Positions 572 through 49,541 of a stretch of DNA of 64,000 bases are shown in pieces. The stretch's first letter is position 1, and every line of letters begins with the position of its first letter. A program made the position numbers and the translations under genes. The notes under the pieces were generated by a model. It was not told where the DNA came from. It saw nothing but the letters and a program-made list of their open reading frames with translations, and ran no database searches. The stretch is from Pseudomonadota bacterium (GTDB taxonomy: Bacteria > Desulfobacterota > Binatia > Binatales > Binataceae): positions 1-64,000 of the forward strand of contig JAJPJA010000103.1 in NCBI GenBank assembly GCA_021324455.1, written 5' to 3'.

Positions 572-1660
572 ATGCAGTTGGCCGTCAATCCGCCGCTGGC
601 GCCGATGCTGTCGCGGCGCATCGAGCAGATACCGGCGGGCGGGGATTGGATATTCGAGCCCAAATGGGACGGCTTTCGCGCGCTGCTGTTCCGCGACGGC
701 GGCGAAGTGCTGATCCAGAGCCGCGACGAGAAATCGCTCAACCGCTACTTTCCTGAATTGATCGAACCCCTGCGCCAGCAACTGCCCCGGCGCTGCGTGC
801 TGGACGGCGAAGTGGTAATCGCGATCGACGGCGCGCTGGATTTCGAAGCGCTGCAGATGCGGATCCATCCGGCGGCCTCCCGCGTCAGGCTGCTGGCCGG
901 TCAAACCCCGGCCTCGATCGTGTTTTTCGACCTGTTGTGCGAAGATAGCCGCGATTTGCGCCGCGAACCGTTCGCCCAGCGCCGCAAGCAGTTGGAACGC
1001 GTCCTTTCCGGCGCGCGCCCGCCGCTTCATCTGACGCCCGCAACTACGGATTCATCGATCGCGGCCGACTGGTTCCGCCGCTTTGAAGGCGCCGGACTCG
1101 ACGGCGTCGTCGCCAAACCCGCCGCGGGAACCTATGAACCGGGCAAGCGCGTCATGTTCAAGATCAAACACGAACGCGACTGCGATTGCGTGGTGGCCGG
1201 TTTCAGATGGCACAAGAACGGCGCGGGTCGCGCGGTCGGTTCGCTGCTGCTGGGACTTTATGACGGCGCCGGCCGGCTTCAGCATGTCGGCGTATGCGCG
1301 AGTTTCACCGACCACAAGCGGCGCGAACTGGTGCAGTTCCTGGCGCCCTACCGGCGCAACGCGCTGGTCAATCATCCATGGAAGGATTGGGCCGAGGCTG
1401 AGGCGGAAGCGGCCGCAGCCGGACGCCGCCTGCCCGGCGCGCAAAGCCGATGGAGCCAGGGCAAGGACCTGTCATGGGAGCCGCTGCGGCCCGAGCTGGT
1501 GCTGGAAGTCGCTTATGAGCATATGCAGGGCGCGCGCTTCCGTCACACCGCTCAGTTCCGCCGCTGGCGCACCGACAAGCGGCCCGAAGACTGCACCTAC
1601 GCGCAGCTCGAAGTGGTGCCGCCGCACGAACTGGCGGCAATCTTCGCACACAGCAGGTGA
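572..1660 (+). CDS. ATP-dependent DNA ligase (LigD ligase-domain / LigC-like)
   Basis: Adenylation motif EPKWDGFRALLF, then DGEVV, DGVVAKP and FKIKHERDCDCVV; 362 aa. Confidence 0.88.
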   Translation: MQLAVNPPLAPMLSRRIEQIPAGGDWIFEPKWDGFRALLFRDGGEVLIQSRDEKSLNRYFPELIEPLRQQLPRRCVLDGEVVIAIDGALDFEALQMRIHPAASRVRLLAGQTPASIVFFDLLCEDSRDLRREPFAQRRKQLERVLSGARPPLHLTPATTDSSIAADWFRRFEGAGLDGVVAKPAAGTYEPGKRVMFKIKHERDCDCVVAGFRWHKNGAGRAVGSLLLGLYDGAGRLQHVGVCASFTDHKRRELVQFLAPYRRNALVNHPWKDWAEAEAEAAAAGRRLPGAQSRWSQGKDLSWEPLRPELVLEVAYEHMQGARFRHTAQFRRWRTDKRPEDCTYAQLEVVPPHELAAIFAHSR

Positions 1661-1688
1661 ATACAGGGAAGGGGAAGATTAACCGGGT

Positions 1689-3011
1689 TTATCCGTCCCG
1701 GCGCGCGATGTGTCTCATCCGCCATTGGCGCGTTGGGTCGTCGTCGGGGTCGGGAGTTTCATGCGCGGGCCGCAGCGGCTCGGGAACGTGGCGCAAATTC
1801 AGCCGGATGCGCGTCCAGGTCGAGGACCTGCCGCGCATCGAATCGACCAGAACGTCATCGGCAGCGAGATAGCGGGCGGCCTCCGGATGCCGGCGCTTCC
1901 ATCGTTCCAACCCCTCCAGCGCGGCGGCGCGATGGGGAGAGTTGGCCACCACCACCAGCGGCATCCGCGTGCGCGGCTGCTTTGGCGATGATCGCGCGCG
2001 CGACGGCGCGACCCGCGGCGCCTCGCCTTCCATCTTGCGGAAATGCGGCGGCCACGGGGCGTCGCCCAGTCCCGCCGCCTCATCTCTGGCCGCCAGTTCA
2101 AGCAATGGATCAAGCGAACCGGCCGCGCCGTCCATAGCGGCGTGCGGGTCACCGATACGGGCGAAACGCTCCGGAACCGTCAGCACGGTAAAATCCCCGG
2201 GTTCGCAGTCGGGGACCTCATGCCAGTAAAGCGGCGTGGAAACCCGCGCGTCGGGGAGCGGACGCACCGAATAGGCCGAGCAAGTAGTGCGATCCCTGGC
2301 GTTCTGGTTGTAATCAAGGAAAACACCGTGCCGCTCCTCTTTCCACCATTTGGAACTGGCGATGGCGGGGGCGCGCCGCTCCACTTCACGCGACAGCGCC
2401 AACGCCGCGCGGCGCACCTGCTCGAAGCTCCAACGCGGCTCGATACGGACGTTGATATGCATTCCGCGCGACCCGCTGGTCTTGGGCCATCCGCGCAGTC
2501 CCATCTCCTCCAGAAGCGACTTTACTTCCAGCGCCACCGCGCGCACATCGGCCCAGGCCACGCCGGGGCATGGATCGAGATCGATCCTCAACTCATCAGG
2601 ATGCTCCAGGTCGGCGGATCGTACCGGATGAGGATGCAGCTCGATACATCCCAGATTGACCACCCACGCGAGCCCCGCCGCGTCGTCAACCACGATCTCT
2701 TCGGCCGTGCGTCCGGAGGGGAAAGAGAGGGTGACGGTGCGCAGCCATTGGGGCCGTTTGGCCGGCGCGCGTTTCTGGTAGAACGCCTCGCCCTCGGCGC
2801 CGTGAACGAAGCGCTTGAGCACCAGGGGACGATCGCTTATTCCATTGAGCGCGCCTTTCGCCACCGACAGGTAGTAGCCAACCAGCTCCAGCTTGGTAAG
2901 CTTCGTCTGGCGGCTGAAATAGGGCTTGTCGGGATGCGTAATCGGCACCTCGCGCCCGTCGATCAGCAGCTTGTGTGCGGCTCCGCTCTTGACCACATCC
3001 TGATTGTACAC
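1689..3011 (-). CDS. NHEJ-type DNA polymerase/primase (LigD polymerase domain family)
   Basis: LigD-Pol motifs ITHPDKPYF, ELRIDLDPCPGVAW, SGSRGMHINVRI and FLDYNQNARDRTTCSAYSVRP. Confidence 0.88.
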   Translation of the reverse strand: MYNQDVVKSGAAHKLLIDGREVPITHPDKPYFSRQTKLTKLELVGYYLSVAKGALNGISDRPLVLKRFVHGAEGEAFYQKRAPAKRPQWLRTVTLSFPSGRTAEEIVVDDAAGLAWVVNLGCIELHPHPVRSADLEHPDELRIDLDPCPGVAWADVRAVALEVKSLLEEMGLRGWPKTSGSRGMHINVRIEPRWSFEQVRRAALALSREVERRAPAIASSKWWKEERHGVFLDYNQNARDRTTCSAYSVRPLPDARVSTPLYWHEVPDCEPGDFTVLTVPERFARIGDPHAAMDGAAGSLDPLLELAARDEAAGLGDAPWPPHFRKMEGEAPRVAPSRARSSPKQPRTRMPLVVVANSPHRAAALEGLERWKRRHPEAARYLAADDVLVDSMRGRSSTWTRIRLNLRHVPEPLRPAHETPDPDDDPTRQWRMRHIARRDG

Positions 3012-12542: not shown

Positions 12543-13652
12543 TTACTCGATGTGATAGACCCTGGCGGCGGTATCGCGGACGATCTTGCGCAACTGGTCG
12601 GCCGGGAGGTTGCCGAGGCGTTTTTGCACGATTTCGCGCGAGCGCGGGAAGGTTGCCGCCGTGTGCGGATAGTCCGATGACCACATCACGTTTTCCGCCG
12701 GATAACGGTCGAGCAGGCTGGCGAACACCGGGTCCGCGATAAACGTGGCGTAGACCTGGCGCTTGACATACTCGCTGGCCCGCATCGGCAGTTTCATTCC
12801 ACCCAGCGCGCCCATCCGGTTCTGCACCGAATCCAGCCGGTACATGAAATACGCCATCCAGCCGACGTCGTTTTCGGCCGAGACAATCTTGAGCCGCGGG
12901 AATTTCTCGAATACCCCGCCGTACACCATCACGGTCAGCGTGCGCTCGATTCCGTGATGCATATTCGCCAGCCGCAGCATCATGTCATGTTTGCCGGGCG
13001 CCGCGATGCCGCCGCCGCGGTTGGTCAGGATGTGCAGCGACAGCGGCATATCCAAATCCTGCGCCGCGGCCCAGAACGGCTCGTATTCGGGCGAGCTGTA
13101 AGGATGGTCGTCGGCGGGCTCGGCCCAGATCATCGCGCCGCGGACGCCTTTTTTGGCGATTCGCTGCAGCTCCGCCACCGCGGACGCAATGTCTTCCAGC
13201 GTGATCAGGCCGAGCGGAATCAGGCGCTTGGGATCGTAGCTGCAATATTCGGCGGCCCAGTCGTTGAACGCGCCGAAGCAGGCCGCGCGCAACTCGGCGT
13301 CGTCCAGCCCGAACAGCGGCATCCCCATCGACGTGTAGATGACCTCGGCCTGCACGCCGTCCTGGTCGAGGTCCTTGAGCCGGTAGGCCGGATCGAAAAC
13401 GCTGCGCGGCGCGTCTTCGTAGCTGCGCTTGTTATGCTCCGGCAGTTCCGCCGAGGGCACGCCGGCGCCGAAGAACGCCGCCACCGGCATCGGATCGATA
13501 TTGCCGCACACGAAGTACTCGCCCGGTTTGCCGCCCAGCCCTTTGACCGTATGCGGCGCGCGGTCGCGGAACTTGCGGTCGATGCGTTCGGCCCACATCG
13601 AGGGCGGCTCGACGAAATGCGAATCCGCTGAGATCAGAAGATAATCCGGCAT
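12543..13652 (-). CDS. Amidohydrolase family protein (amidohydrolase_2 type), copy 1
   Basis: SADSHFVEPPSMWAER, GVQAEVIYTSMGMPLF, VMWSSDYPHTAATFPRSRE; 369 aa. Confidence 0.88.
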   Translation of the reverse strand: MPDYLLISADSHFVEPPSMWAERIDRKFRDRAPHTVKGLGGKPGEYFVCGNIDPMPVAAFFGAGVPSAELPEHNKRSYEDAPRSVFDPAYRLKDLDQDGVQAEVIYTSMGMPLFGLDDAELRAACFGAFNDWAAEYCSYDPKRLIPLGLITLEDIASAVAELQRIAKKGVRGAMIWAEPADDHPYSSPEYEPFWAAAQDLDMPLSLHILTNRGGGIAAPGKHDMMLRLANMHHGIERTLTVMVYGGVFEKFPRLKIVSAENDVGWMAYFMYRLDSVQNRMGALGGMKLPMRASEYVKRQVYATFIADPVFASLLDRYPAENVMWSSDYPHTAATFPRSREIVQKRLGNLPADQLRKIVRDTAARVYHIE

Positions 13653-13706
13653 GACGCTTCTCCTGTGGCGTCCGCTCCGGGCACACCGGTGGCGGCGCGA
13701 TTACAG

Positions 13707-14816
13707 TTATTGCAGCCCGTAGAGCCGGGCCGCGGTGTCGCGCACGATCTTGCGCAGCTCCCCGGCCGGTACCATCCCCAGCCGTTTGGCCACGATTTCA
13801 CGCGAGCGCGGGAACGTGGCGGCGGTGTGCGGATAATCCGACGACCACATGATGTTGTCGCCGGGATAGCGATGCAGCGAATCGACGAACACCGGGTCGG
13901 CGATGAACGTCGCGTACACCTGGCGCCGGATGTATTCGCTGGCGCGCAGCGGCAGCTTCATCCCGCCCAACGCTCCAAGGCGGTTCTGCACCGTATCGAG
14001 CCGATACATGAAATACGCCATCCAGCCGGCGTCATTCTCGGCCGAGACGATTTTAAGGCGCGGAAACTTTTCCAGCACGCCGCCGTAGATCAGCGTGGTC
14101 AGTGTGCGTTCCACCGCGTGATGCATATTGGCCAGCCGCAGCAGCATGTCCTTGCGCGAGGGCGCCATGTTGCCGCCGCCGCGATTGGTCAGAACATGCA
14201 GCGACAGCGGCATGTCGAGGTCCTGCGCTGCCGCCCAGAACGGCTCGTATTCGGGTGAGCTGTAAGGATGGTCGGAAGCGGGCTCAGCCCAGATCATGGC
14301 GCCGCGGACGCCCTTTTTGGCCGCGCGCTGCAGCTCGGCCACCGCGGACGGGATGTCCTCCAGCGTGATCAGGCCCAGCGGCACCAGGCGTTTGAAGTCG
14401 TAGCTGCAATATTCGGCGGCCCAGTCGTTGAAGGCGGCAAAGCAGGCCGCGCGCAGCTCCGCGTCGTCGAGCTGAAACAGCGGCATTCCCATCGACGTGT
14501 AAATGACCTCGGCCTGGACGCCGTCGCGGTCCTGGTCTTTCAGACGGTAGGCCGGGTCCCAGACGCTTTGGGGCGCCGCTTCGAACCCCTTTTTATTGAA
14601 GGCCGGCAGCTCGTGCGAGGGTACGCCGGCGCCGAAAAACCCCGCCACCGGCATCGGCGCGATATCGCCGCAAACGAAGAACTCGCCCTCCTTGCCGTTG
14701 AGGTTGCGTACGGTATGCGGCGCGCGGTCGCGAAAGCGCTTGTCCATCCGCTCGGCCCACATGTTGGGCGGCTCGACGAAATGGGAATCGCCGGAAATGA
14801 GAAGGTAGTCAGACAT
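13707..14816 (-). CDS. Amidohydrolase family protein (amidohydrolase_2 type), copy 2
   Basis: SGDSHFVEPPNMWAER, GVQAEVIYTSMGMPLF, IMWSSDYPHTAATFPRSRE; same 369 aa length as its neighbour from the ATG at 14816. Confidence 0.88.
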   Translation of the reverse strand: MSDYLLISGDSHFVEPPNMWAERMDKRFRDRAPHTVRNLNGKEGEFFVCGDIAPMPVAGFFGAGVPSHELPAFNKKGFEAAPQSVWDPAYRLKDQDRDGVQAEVIYTSMGMPLFQLDDAELRAACFAAFNDWAAEYCSYDFKRLVPLGLITLEDIPSAVAELQRAAKKGVRGAMIWAEPASDHPYSSPEYEPFWAAAQDLDMPLSLHVLTNRGGGNMAPSRKDMLLRLANMHHAVERTLTTLIYGGVLEKFPRLKIVSAENDAGWMAYFMYRLDTVQNRLGALGGMKLPLRASEYIRRQVYATFIADPVFVDSLHRYPGDNIMWSSDYPHTAATFPRSREIVAKRLGMVPAGELRKIVRDTAARLYGLQ

Positions 14817-20796: not shown

Positions 20797-22530
20797 GTGA
20801 CTGGCTCATTGGTGGGTGCGCCTATTGGGCCCGCCTCAAACTTGTGTTTTCCTAAGCCTGACGTGGCCACGTTCCAGCAATTCGCCCAGACCTGTCAGGC
20901 GCTCAGCCAGACCCAGAGCCGGCTTCAGATGGCTGAGGTGGCGGGCGGCTTTCTGGCCCAACTGGACCTCGACCAGGCCGAAGCCGCTGCCCGCTTCATG
21001 ATTGGACGCGCGCTGCCGGTGGGCGACGAAGCCAGGCTTAACCTCAGCGGACGCGCCGTGTGGCGGGTCGCCGCCGAGCTTACCGGCGCCGCGGACCGCG
21101 GCGAGGATATCTTTGCCGAAGCGGTCGATTTCGGTGACGCGGTCGAGATCGTGATGCGTCTGCGCGACACCGAACCCGCGCCGACCTTGAGCATCGCCGA
21201 AGTGGCGGCCCGGATGCGCGAAATCGCCGCCGCCCAGGGCCGCCATGCGCGCCGGCGTAAACTCGACCTGCTGCGCGGCCTGTTCATCCGCGCGACCGCG
21301 CTGGAAGCGAAGTACCTGGCTAAAATTCTCATCCGCGAGATGCGCCACGGGATGAGCGAAGGCGTGATGCTGGACGCGATTGCCTACGCCACCGGCGCGC
21401 CGATCGCGGATGTGCGCCGGATCAACATGATGCAGGGCGACCCGGGCCGCGTCCTGCGCGTGTTGCGCGGCGATGCGGCGGCGCCGCAATCTGGCGGATT
21501 GGCGATGCGCCCGCTCAAACCGATGCTGGCGCAGCCCGCCGATACGGTGGCCGACGCCTTTGCCATGCTGGGCCCGGAACTGGCGCTGGAGCATAAGCTT
21601 GACGGCGCGCGCGTGCAGATCCATGGCGCCGCCGGCCACATCCGCATCTTCTCCCGCCGGCTCAACGAGATCACCCCGAGCCTGCCGGAGATCGCCGAGC
21701 TGATGGCGGCGCGAATCCCCAATCGCAGCTTCATTTTCGACGGCGAGGTGGTAGCCGTCGATCGGCAGGGCAATCCGCTCGCGTTCCAGGAGCTGATGCG
21801 CCGCTTCAGACGAATCCGCGAAGTGGAACGCCTGCGCGAGCAATCGCCCGTGCGGCTGTTCCTGTTCGATGTTTTGGGACTGGATGACGAGCTTCTGATC
21901 GATCGTGAGTATCGGGATCGTTTCGCGATTCTTCAGCAGACGGCGCACGCGGCGGGATTGGAGCTGGCCGGCAGATGCCTGCCCGCCAACCTCAATGAGG
22001 GCGAGCAGTTTTACGCCGCGGCGCGCGCGGCCGGCTATGAAGGCGTGATGGCCAAGCGGCTCGACAGCCGCTACAGCCCCGGAGTACGCGGCCGCGGATG
22101 GCTCAAGATCAAGGGCGCGCGCACTCTGGATCTGGTAATCGTCGCGGCGGATTGGGGCTACGGGCGGCGCCACGGATGGCTTTCGAACTACCATCTGGCC
22201 GCGCGCAGCGGGGCCGCGGACCAATTCGCCGAGGTCGGCAAAACATTCAAGGGGCTGACCGACGACCAGTTCCGGGAAATGACAGAGCGGCTGCTCGCGC
22301 TTAAAACAGCACAGCGCGGCGGCACCGTTTACGTCAGGCCCGCGGTGGTGGTGGAGGTGGCTTACAGCGATATCCAGCGCAGTCCGCAATACGAATGCGG
22401 GATGGCGCTGCGGTTTGCCCGTATCGTGCGCCTGCGTGAGGACAAAATCCCGGCCGACGCCGACTCAATCGAAAGCATCGGCCGGGAATTCGAACGTCAG
22501 ATTCTGCGCACCCCGCCTCAACCCGGTTAA
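20797..22530 (+). CDS. ATP-dependent DNA ligase (archaeal-type)
   Basis: ALEHKLDGARVQIH adenylation motif, RRLNEITPSLPEI, FIFDGEVVAVD, EGVMAKRLDSRYSPGVRGRGWLKIK. Likely GTG start at 20863. Confidence 0.9.
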   Translation: MTGSLVGAPIGPASNLCFPKPDVATFQQFAQTCQALSQTQSRLQMAEVAGGFLAQLDLDQAEAAARFMIGRALPVGDEARLNLSGRAVWRVAAELTGAADRGEDIFAEAVDFGDAVEIVMRLRDTEPAPTLSIAEVAARMREIAAAQGRHARRRKLDLLRGLFIRATALEAKYLAKILIREMRHGMSEGVMLDAIAYATGAPIADVRRINMMQGDPGRVLRVLRGDAAAPQSGGLAMRPLKPMLAQPADTVADAFAMLGPELALEHKLDGARVQIHGAAGHIRIFSRRLNEITPSLPEIAELMAARIPNRSFIFDGEVVAVDRQGNPLAFQELMRRFRRIREVERLREQSPVRLFLFDVLGLDDELLIDREYRDRFAILQQTAHAAGLELAGRCLPANLNEGEQFYAAARAAGYEGVMAKRLDSRYSPGVRGRGWLKIKGARTLDLVIVAADWGYGRRHGWLSNYHLAARSGAADQFAEVGKTFKGLTDDQFREMTERLLALKTAQRGGTVYVRPAVVVEVAYSDIQRSPQYECGMALRFARIVRLREDKIPADADSIESIGREFERQILRTPPQPG

Positions 22531-47811: not shown

Positions 47812-49041
47812 ATGGGTGCATTGACCGACAAGTACTGTATCGTGGGGGTGGGTGAGACCCGCTTCATGAAAGCCTCCAACCGCACGCCGCTGTCGATGGC
47901 GTGCGAGGCGGTGAAGAAGGCGATGGACGACGCCGGGCTGACCGCGCGCGAGGTCGACGCGATCACCAGCTTTCAGATCGCAGACTCCACCGATGTCGCC
48001 AACGTGGCGCAGGCGCTCGGCATCCGCATAAACTACGGTTCGGTGGCCTACAGCGGCGGTTCGACGACCGAAGCGCTGACGGCGCACGCCATCGGACTGA
48101 TCGAAGGCGGCTACTGCAACACGGTCGCGATCTTTCGTTCGATGAACGGCCGCACGGGGCGGCGGATGGGCGGGCAGGCGCCGGGCGGGGTGGTGCCGCC
48201 CAGCCGCGCCGAGGGCGACGCGCAGTTCTACATGCCGTGGGGGTTTACCACGCCGGCGCAGCATTTCGCCCCCTCCGCGATGCGCTATCTGCATGACTTC
48301 GGCGCCAGCACCAAATCGTTCGCCGAAGTGGCGAGCGCGTTTCGCTACCACGCCGGACTCAATCCCAAGGCGCTGATGCGGGCGCCGATGACGATCGAGG
48401 ATCATCAGCGGTCGCGATGGGTGGCCAAGCCCTTCCGGCTGCTGGACTGCTGCCTTGAGACCGATGTGGCGTCGGCGTTCATCGTGACCTCGCGCGAACG
48501 CGCCTACGACCTGCGCCAGCCGCCGGTTTTCATCCTCGGCGGCAGCGCGCGCACCTATGCCGACAATCCCGCATGGAACCATTCGCGGCTGCGTCCTTAT
48601 CTGCAGGCCGGCAACTTCGCCCGTCAGCGCGTGTGGGGCATGTCAGGTATCCGGCCTGAAGATATCGACGTGCTGTCGATTTATGACGCGTTCACCTACA
48701 CCGTGATTCTACAGCTTGAGGCCTATGGCTTTTGCGCAATCGGCGAGGCCGCGGAATTCGTCAAAGGCGGGCGGCTGCGGATCGACCATGAACTGCCGAC
48801 CAATCTTTCCGGCGGGCATCTGTCGGAGGGCTATGCGCATGGCGTCGCGCTGGTCAATGAGGTGGTGCGCCAATTGCGCCATCGCGCGGACGATTCGTGT
48901 CCCGGATGGGCGGAGGGCAGGCATACGTACGATCGTCAGGCGGGATGCCGCCAGGTAAGGCGGGCGCGCTTCGGCGCCAGCCTGGGATGGGGCACGGAAA
49001 CGCGGGGCAGCTGCTTGATTTTGCGCAGCGCCTCGGCCTAG
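47812..49041 (+). CDS. Thiolase-fold protein (SCP2-thiolase/Ltp2-like), probable lyase/aldolase rather than thiolase
   Basis: YCIVGVGETRFMKA, SVAYSGGSTTEALTAHAIGLIEGG, IDVLSIYDAFTYTVILQLEAYGFC, GGHLSEGYAHGVALVNEVVRQL. Confidence 0.82.
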   Translation: MGALTDKYCIVGVGETRFMKASNRTPLSMACEAVKKAMDDAGLTAREVDAITSFQIADSTDVANVAQALGIRINYGSVAYSGGSTTEALTAHAIGLIEGGYCNTVAIFRSMNGRTGRRMGGQAPGGVVPPSRAEGDAQFYMPWGFTTPAQHFAPSAMRYLHDFGASTKSFAEVASAFRYHAGLNPKALMRAPMTIEDHQRSRWVAKPFRLLDCCLETDVASAFIVTSRERAYDLRQPPVFILGGSARTYADNPAWNHSRLRPYLQAGNFARQRVWGMSGIRPEDIDVLSIYDAFTYTVILQLEAYGFCAIGEAAEFVKGGRLRIDHELPTNLSGGHLSEGYAHGVALVNEVVRQLRHRADDSCPGWAEGRHTYDRQAGCRQVRRARFGASLGWGTETRGSCLILRSASA

Positions 49042-49070
49042 TTATCGTCAGGGAAAGCGAGAGGTATGCA

Positions 49071-49541
49071 ATGCCCGGAGAAATCGACTACAGCAAGATC
49101 AACATCATCCCCGACCAGGACACCGCCGAATGGTGGGAGGGGACCAAACGGCACAAGTTTCTGGTCCGCCAATGCAAGCAATGCGGGCACAAGTGGTTTC
49201 CGCCTTTCCCGGCCTGCGCCAAATGCACCTCGATGGACCTGACCTGGTACGAAACCGCCGGCAAGGGGGTCATCCACAGCTATGTCGTAGTGACGCAGCC
49301 AATCCTGGCCGCGTTCGTCACCGCGGTGCCTTATGTCGTCGGCCTGATTGAACTTGACGACTGCCACGAAGCTGACGGCCGGCTGACCCGCGTCGCCGGG
49401 GTGATGAAGGACGACGAAGCCGAGGTGGCAATCGGATTGCCGGTTGAAGTGGTATTCGAGCCCACCGGCGATCCCAATTTCATCATGCCGCGATGGAAAA
49501 TCTGCGGAACGGCATCCAATACCTGGAAGTTTACCGAATAA
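49071..49541 (+). CDS. Zn-ribbon/OB-fold DUF35-family protein
   Basis: FLVRQCKQCGHKWFPPFPACAKCTSMDLTWYETAGKGVIHSYVVV; ATG at 49071. Confidence 0.88.
   Translation: MPGEIDYSKINIIPDQDTAEWWEGTKRHKFLVRQCKQCGHKWFPPFPACAKCTSMDLTWYETAGKGVIHSYVVVTQPILAAFVTAVPYVVGLIELDDCHEADGRLTRVAGVMKDDEAEVAIGLPVEVVFEPTGDPNFIMPRWKICGTASNTWKFTE

Follow-up and report, generated by a model that had tools for sequence, protein, structure and literature searches.

What reaction is carried out by a thiolase-fold protein that has lost the cysteine and histidine of thiolases, and whose gene is followed by one for a DUF35 protein? The question is raised by two genes in the window, i.e., the whole stretch of 64,000 nucleotides that was analysed, from a genome of the Binatia. 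An initial annotation had described, at 47812–49541, a thiolase-fold protein and a DUF35 gene after it, and had proposed a probable Ltp2-like aldolase. Both open reading frames were present, as were the motifs quoted for the thiolase-like protein. The features are collected in Table 1.

Table 1. Features of the thiolase-like/DUF35 gene pair
Feature	Position	Strand	Evidence
Thiolase-fold, Ltp2-like putative aldolase subunit, 409 aa	47812..49041	+	Pfam, phmmer, AlphaFold/Foldseek, dN/dS
SGG, residues 81–83, thiolase nucleophilic-Cys position, no Cys	48052..48060	+	Alignment with own_C111 (FCATGS) and own_C97 (ACASGS)
YDAF, residues 291–294; Tyr291 = Ltp2 Tyr294 (base), Ala293 = Ltp2 His296 (oxyanion)	48682..48693	+	Alignments
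GGHLSEGYAHG, residues 334–344; His336 (Gln in Ltp2), Glu339, Tyr341 = Ltp2 Tyr344 (acid), His343	48811..48843	+	Alignments
DUF35 partner (zinc ribbon and OB fold), 156 aa	49071..49541	+	Pfam, best PDB match, start codon from sequence
DUF35 zinc ribbon Cys-x2-Cys ... Cys-x2-Cys (Cys35, 38, 49, 52)	49173..49226	+	Sequence; alignment to 6ok1 ChsH2(DUF35)

The two genes are intact and conserved

The start of the DUF35 gene was placed at the ATG at 49071, the first ATG that yields the conserved MPGEIDY, and 29 bases separate it from the stop codon of the thiolase-like gene. The thiolase-like protein matched Pfam Thiolase_C_1 with 108 bits (cut-off, 28), and its best NCBIfam match was the lipid-transfer model PRK07855 with 337.7 bits, below the cut-off of 469. 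The DUF35 protein matched OB_ChsH2_C and zf-ChsH2, both above the cut-off, and has the four-cysteine, rubredoxin-like zinc ribbon and the OB fold that define the DUF35/ChsH2 C-terminal domain. The pair forms a two-gene unit, syntenic with the 93% identical relative L031, against which the dN/dS values were 0.064 for the thiolase-like gene and 0.057 for the DUF35 gene. Both genes are under strong purifying selection, and with a dN/dS of about 0.06 for the pair a pseudogene or decay reading was ruled out.

The nearest structures are the two chains of one aldolase complex

A structural comparison with Ltp2–ChsH2(DUF35) complexes had been suggested in the initial annotation. By phmmer, the best PDB match of the thiolase-like protein was Ltp2 (6ok1_A, E = 2.6e-71), followed by 4U4E and then CtSal (9MYR), with true thiolases far weaker. 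The best PDB match of the DUF35 protein was ChsH2(DUF35) (6ok1_B, E = 2.8e-16); the two subunits thus find their closest solved counterparts in the partner chains of a single complex, 6OK1. The AlphaFold model of the thiolase-like protein, built from 47 relatives, had a pLDDT of 83.4 and a pTM of 0.88, with low confidence at residues 116–134 and 137–145. When the predicted fold was submitted to Foldseek, Ltp2 of 6OK1 again ranked first (TM 0.84/0.90) and 4U4E was the next entry.

The thiolase residues are lost and both tyrosines of Ltp2 are kept

The active site was aligned with the canonical thiolase copies of the host genome itself (NFCATGS, HDCF, GHPIGASG). The nucleophile column is a Gly within SGGSTTE, and the column of the GHPxG histidine is Tyr341. 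The loss of the thiolase Cys and His, which the initial annotation had claimed, was borne out in this alignment. It had also noted a Tyr in place of the thiolase His, but had not remarked that this Tyr341 aligns with the catalytic Tyr344 of Ltp2. A Cys-His-Cys triad elsewhere in the protein, which it had named as one finding that would speak against an aldolase, was searched for by alignment, and none was found at other positions. The nucleophilic Cys, the GHPxG His and the second Cys that mark canonical thiolases are all missing, and a true thiolase was rejected on the absence of the triad. A true thiolase or acyltransferase with a relocated nucleophile, e.g., Cys308 or Cys213/214, is very improbable. 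These cysteines are conserved in the clade of the protein, as are Cys363 and Cys379, but none of them coincides with an active-site position of thiolases, a tyrosine replaces the GHPxG histidine, and Ltp2 of Thermomonospora curvata, an aldolase, has Cys as well at the positions of residues 213, 214 and 308.

In T. curvata Ltp2 (TcLtp2), YDHF supplies the base, Tyr294, and also His296, an oxyanion-hole residue whose replacement costs only 14-fold; the acid is Tyr344. In CtSal, the residues used are Tyr302 and Cys304, both from YDCY, and a Gln stands in the place of Tyr344 (PMC12329534). Tyr291, Asp292, Phe294, Glu339, Tyr341 and His343 of the window's protein were invariant across 47 sequences, true Ltp2 included. 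Position 336 was His in 73 of the 76 rows of the YDAF clade, Gln in Ltp2 and Phe in the actinobacterial YDCF clade. His336 may perhaps take part of the oxyanion role lost with His296. With Ala293, the protein lacks the His that aids catalysis in Ltp2, and to that extent the residue counts against a retro-aldolase.

The protein belongs to a separate clade marked by YDAF

In the tree, the thiolase-like protein fell within its own clade with 100/100 support, to which Ltp2, Sal and 4U4E do not belong. A grouping of this clade with Ltp2 alone was rejected by an AU test run after the tree had been seen (p-AU 0.018), and a simple Ltp2 ortholog was rejected from the tree placement and this test. The proposal of an Ltp2-like aldolase thus stood as regards the fold, the DUF35 pairing and both tyrosines, and did not stand as strict membership of Ltp2, in view of the separate clade and the Ala at the oxyanion His. 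The hallmark of the clade, YDAF with GGHL(S/C)E(G/A)Y, is almost invariant, with one YDAV row.

The best matches of the protein were in Binatia, and the remaining clade members were from Rokubacteria/Methylomirabilota, Chloroflexota (Dehalococcoidia, SAR202) and similar records; among the 80 loci listed, almost all members were marked as metagenome-assembled. A close match was found in 20 of the 57 relatives of the host genome, and the host genome itself has four close copies. A mycobacterial genome with an igr-like operon (20 thiolase-like matches) and an Actinomadura genome (nine) had no YDAF-clade member among these matches, and an ortholog of another mycobacterial Ltp protein was rejected on this ground. 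No description of the YDAF clade was found in the literature searched, which consisted of open-licence papers.

Several relatives departed from the common pattern. A close paralog in the host genome (L015:5718-6953) has YDAV for YDAF and Gln at 336, with a DUF35 gene adjoining and an acyl-CoA-synthetase-like gene nearby. In a Chloroflexota metagenome-assembled genome (MAG) (L050:5633-8280), the thiolase-like gene is tandemly duplicated ahead of one DUF35 gene. A 69% identical clade member was found in a MAG labelled Klebsiella pneumoniae (L034, contig CAMBFS010000169.1), which is probably mislabelled or contaminated. A third variant, YDCF with GGFLSEGYVHG, has the Cys known from Sal together with the second of the Ltp2 tyrosines. 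It occurred in Actinomadura, Nonomuraea and relatives and in one deltaproteobacterial MAG (L095, L097–L101, L103–L106 and L110), and at the actinobacterial loci DUF35, flavin reductase and often acyl-CoA dehydrogenase genes adjoin it.

Some Binatia relatives carry the pair in a degradative operon

A DUF35 gene directly follows the thiolase-like gene in almost all loci of the clade; this neighbour is missing only for two paralog types (C148 and C66 in the host genome; counterparts L037, L038, L040 and L041) and on one cut contig. The window's pair is flanked by sugar-modifying genes upstream on the other strand and by a permease gene downstream, and no acyl-CoA dehydrogenase or hydratase gene adjoins it. 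In six Binatia loci (L032, L033, L035, L036, L046 and L068), an acyl-CoA dehydrogenase gene lies upstream of the pair. Most of these loci also carry genes for an enoyl-CoA hydratase and a luciferase-like monooxygenase, and two of them (L032 and L033) have an additional acetyl-CoA hydrolase/transferase-type CoA-transferase beside the pair. The initial annotation had suggested an acyl-CoA dehydrogenase and a MaoC-like hydratase as partners to look for; these functions were found beside orthologs in relatives and not beside this copy, and the hydratase is of the crotonase type, not MaoC. The dehydrogenase and hydratase of the relatives are the expected supply line for a 3-hydroxyacyl-CoA retro-aldolase. 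Conversely, the two paralogs without an adjacent DUF35 gene and the lack of both enzymes beside the window's copy count against this activity.

The forward, biosynthetic direction, in which the enolate of an acyl-CoA would condense with a ketone or aldehyde in an aldol-type reaction, would employ identical residues, and the window's copy is without catabolic neighbours. We nevertheless consider this direction unlikely, as the orthologs in relatives sit in a degradative set with acyl-CoA dehydrogenase, hydratase and, in two, CoA-transferase, and as acyl-CoA dehydrogenases are abundant in the host genome.

A deltaproteobacterial igr-like operon (L102) encodes two acyl-CoA dehydrogenases with a 325-aa protein of a ChsH2-like cluster between them, a MaoC-like protein and an aldolase. 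Because this aldolase has YDAF, the loss of the oxyanion His occurs within a typical Ltp2 setting, and YDHF is not an absolute mark of such enzymes.

Two further candidates were set aside. The luciferase-like monooxygenase was dropped as a dedicated partner: it recurs in several lineages, but as different subfamilies (about 20–26% identity). As to counterparts of the Binatia-operon genes in the host genome, only a distant CoA-transferase (32%) was found; an acyl-CoA dehydrogenase on contig C121 is 54% identical to that of the Binatia operons, with no aldolase gene in the stretch read.

Other gene arrangements were noted, the first two of them by eye. At Rokubacteria loci (L049, L054, L056, L062, L065–L067 and L096), LigA/LigB extradiol-dioxygenase-like and UGSC-like genes are convergent beside the pair. 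Elsewhere in the window, LigD-like ligase and polymerase open reading frames lie back to back at 572–3011, and a second ATP-dependent DNA-ligase-like open reading frame lies at 20863–22530. At 12543–14816 there are two tandem, very similar amidohydrolase-like open reading frames of 369 aa each.

The host genome has many such genes and no recognisable steroid cluster

The host genome (5.28 Mb in 161 contigs) had 27 thiolase-like, 23 DUF35 and 53 acyl-CoA-dehydrogenase-like matches, and the mycobacterial genome used for comparison had 20 thiolase-like matches. The window's pair is one of many such genes, and the thiolase-like count of the host is high, not unique. Neither steroid-ring genes nor an igr-type operon (ChsE1/E2, ChsH1/H2) was found within the 64-kb window, in agreement with the initial annotation. 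In the host genome, the search for a steroid ring cluster gave only a KstD-like match of 329 bits (cut-off, 793) and an HsaC-like match of 348 bits (cut-off, 366), which are on different contigs with no recognisable ring-cleavage cluster around either.

The host genome holds both Ltp2-like and Sal-like genes. A second thiolase-fold/DUF35 pair lies outside the window, about 21 kb downstream of the first (contig C124, 70271–71443 and 71440–71838; L016:6271-7838). It has the true Ltp2 motifs YDHF and GGLLGEAYIHG, groups with Ltp2 in the tree, and adjoins a gene whose 836-aa product contains two stretches of CoA-transferase family III. A Sal-like gene on contig C6 (L124:5756-6913) has YDCY and GQPG, groups with CtSal, and is followed by a DUF35-type gene of 133 aa.

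Proposed function

We judge it likely, at a probability of roughly three in four, that the pair encodes the two subunits of an Ltp2-type retro-aldolase acting on 3-hydroxyacyl-CoA. C–C cleavage, which the initial annotation had put forward as the likeliest chemistry, is favoured by the Ltp2-like fold, the pairing with DUF35 and the loss of the thiolase residues. The reaction, its direction, the residue roles and the formation of a complex are inferred by homology as follows. The thiolase-fold subunit would bind a 3-hydroxyacyl-CoA made by acyl-CoA dehydrogenase and enoyl-CoA hydratase, and the docked DUF35 subunit would shape the substrate cleft. Tyr291 would act as the base that takes the proton from the 3-hydroxyl, upon which the bond between C-alpha and C-beta would break to give a ketone or aldehyde and the enolate of acetyl- or propionyl-CoA. 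With Ala293 replacing the oxyanion His, backbone amides would probably stabilise the enolate, perhaps together with His336, a residue that is close to invariant in the YDAF clade alone; Tyr341 would then protonate the enolate as the acid. A tertiary 3-carbon, such as that of the Ltp2 substrate, cannot be oxidised to the 3-keto form, and cleavage then requires a retro-aldolase. The substrate here is probably a branched or tertiary 3-hydroxyacyl-CoA, which may or may not be a steroid.

Because the clade is not that of Ltp2, the chemistry could have shifted, and we know of no activity for any YDAF-clade member. Many Cys-less thiolase-fold proteins lack an assigned activity, and TbSLP slowly decarboxylates malonyl-CoA (PMC12329534). 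It nonetheless appears improbable that the window's protein decarboxylates a malonyl-type CoA, acts as a hydrolase or has a structural role without catalysis: both catalytic tyrosines of Ltp2 are strictly kept, purifying selection is strong, and CtSal, when assayed, was without decarboxylase activity (PMC12329534).

Among enzymes of this kind, structures and worked-out mechanisms were found for Ltp2 and Sal, and a near-invariant, separate clade with both tyrosines and without the oxyanion His would show how far the active site can be rebuilt. As a tentative and somewhat doubtful extension, the YDAF clade might be an aldolase family that evolved separately in uncultured bacteria of soil, subsurface and marine habitats. 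It would use a rebuilt oxyanion hole (His336 for His296) to split branched or cyclic acyl-CoAs that are not steroids and that stem from recalcitrant organic matter. The clade may point to C–C cleavage in uncultured SAR202, Rokubacteria and Binatia on compounds beyond ordinary beta-oxidation. Database names such as acetyl-CoA acetyltransferase or lipid-transfer protein can be misleading, in a single genome for as many as two dozen genes.

Comparison with known systems

BbsAB benzoylsuccinyl-CoA thiolase and the archaeal thiolase/HMG-CoA synthase/DUF35 complex have the thiolase fold and DUF35 in common with the window's pair, but the similarity is much weaker, and both are true Cys-dependent thiolases. 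4U4E, a putative thiolase of Sphaerobacter thermophilus, has a Tyr at the YDxF site as well and is the second nearest solved protein by sequence; however, it has YDSF, a His at the Tyr341 column and a place in another clade. The bile-acid aldolase Sal–Shy(DUF35) of Comamonas testosteroni (9MYR) is likewise of thiolase fold without the nucleophilic Cys, with a DUF35 partner and a base Tyr (Tyr302 in Sal). It differs by Cys304 of YDCY and by Gln352 at the Tyr341 column, and its clade, in which the C6 protein of the host genome is found, is separate.

The closest system is Ltp2–ChsH2(DUF35) of T. curvata (6OK1), with the same fold, a DUF35 partner, no thiolase Cys or His, and both catalytic tyrosines kept (Tyr294 to Tyr291, Tyr344 to Tyr341). 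The differences are His296 to Ala293, so that YDHF becomes YDAF, Gln339 to His336, the separate clade, and the operon, which is not igr-like here and has a crotonase-type hydratase, not MaoC, in relatives. Of the marks of Ltp2 in the strict sense, the window's protein therefore has the Tyr pair and lacks the oxyanion His of YDHF, the clade placement and the igr or steroid context. It shows every mark of the wider, two-Tyr Ltp2-like group: the thiolase fold, no nucleophilic Cys, YDxF with E(A/G)YxHG, and a DUF35 partner.
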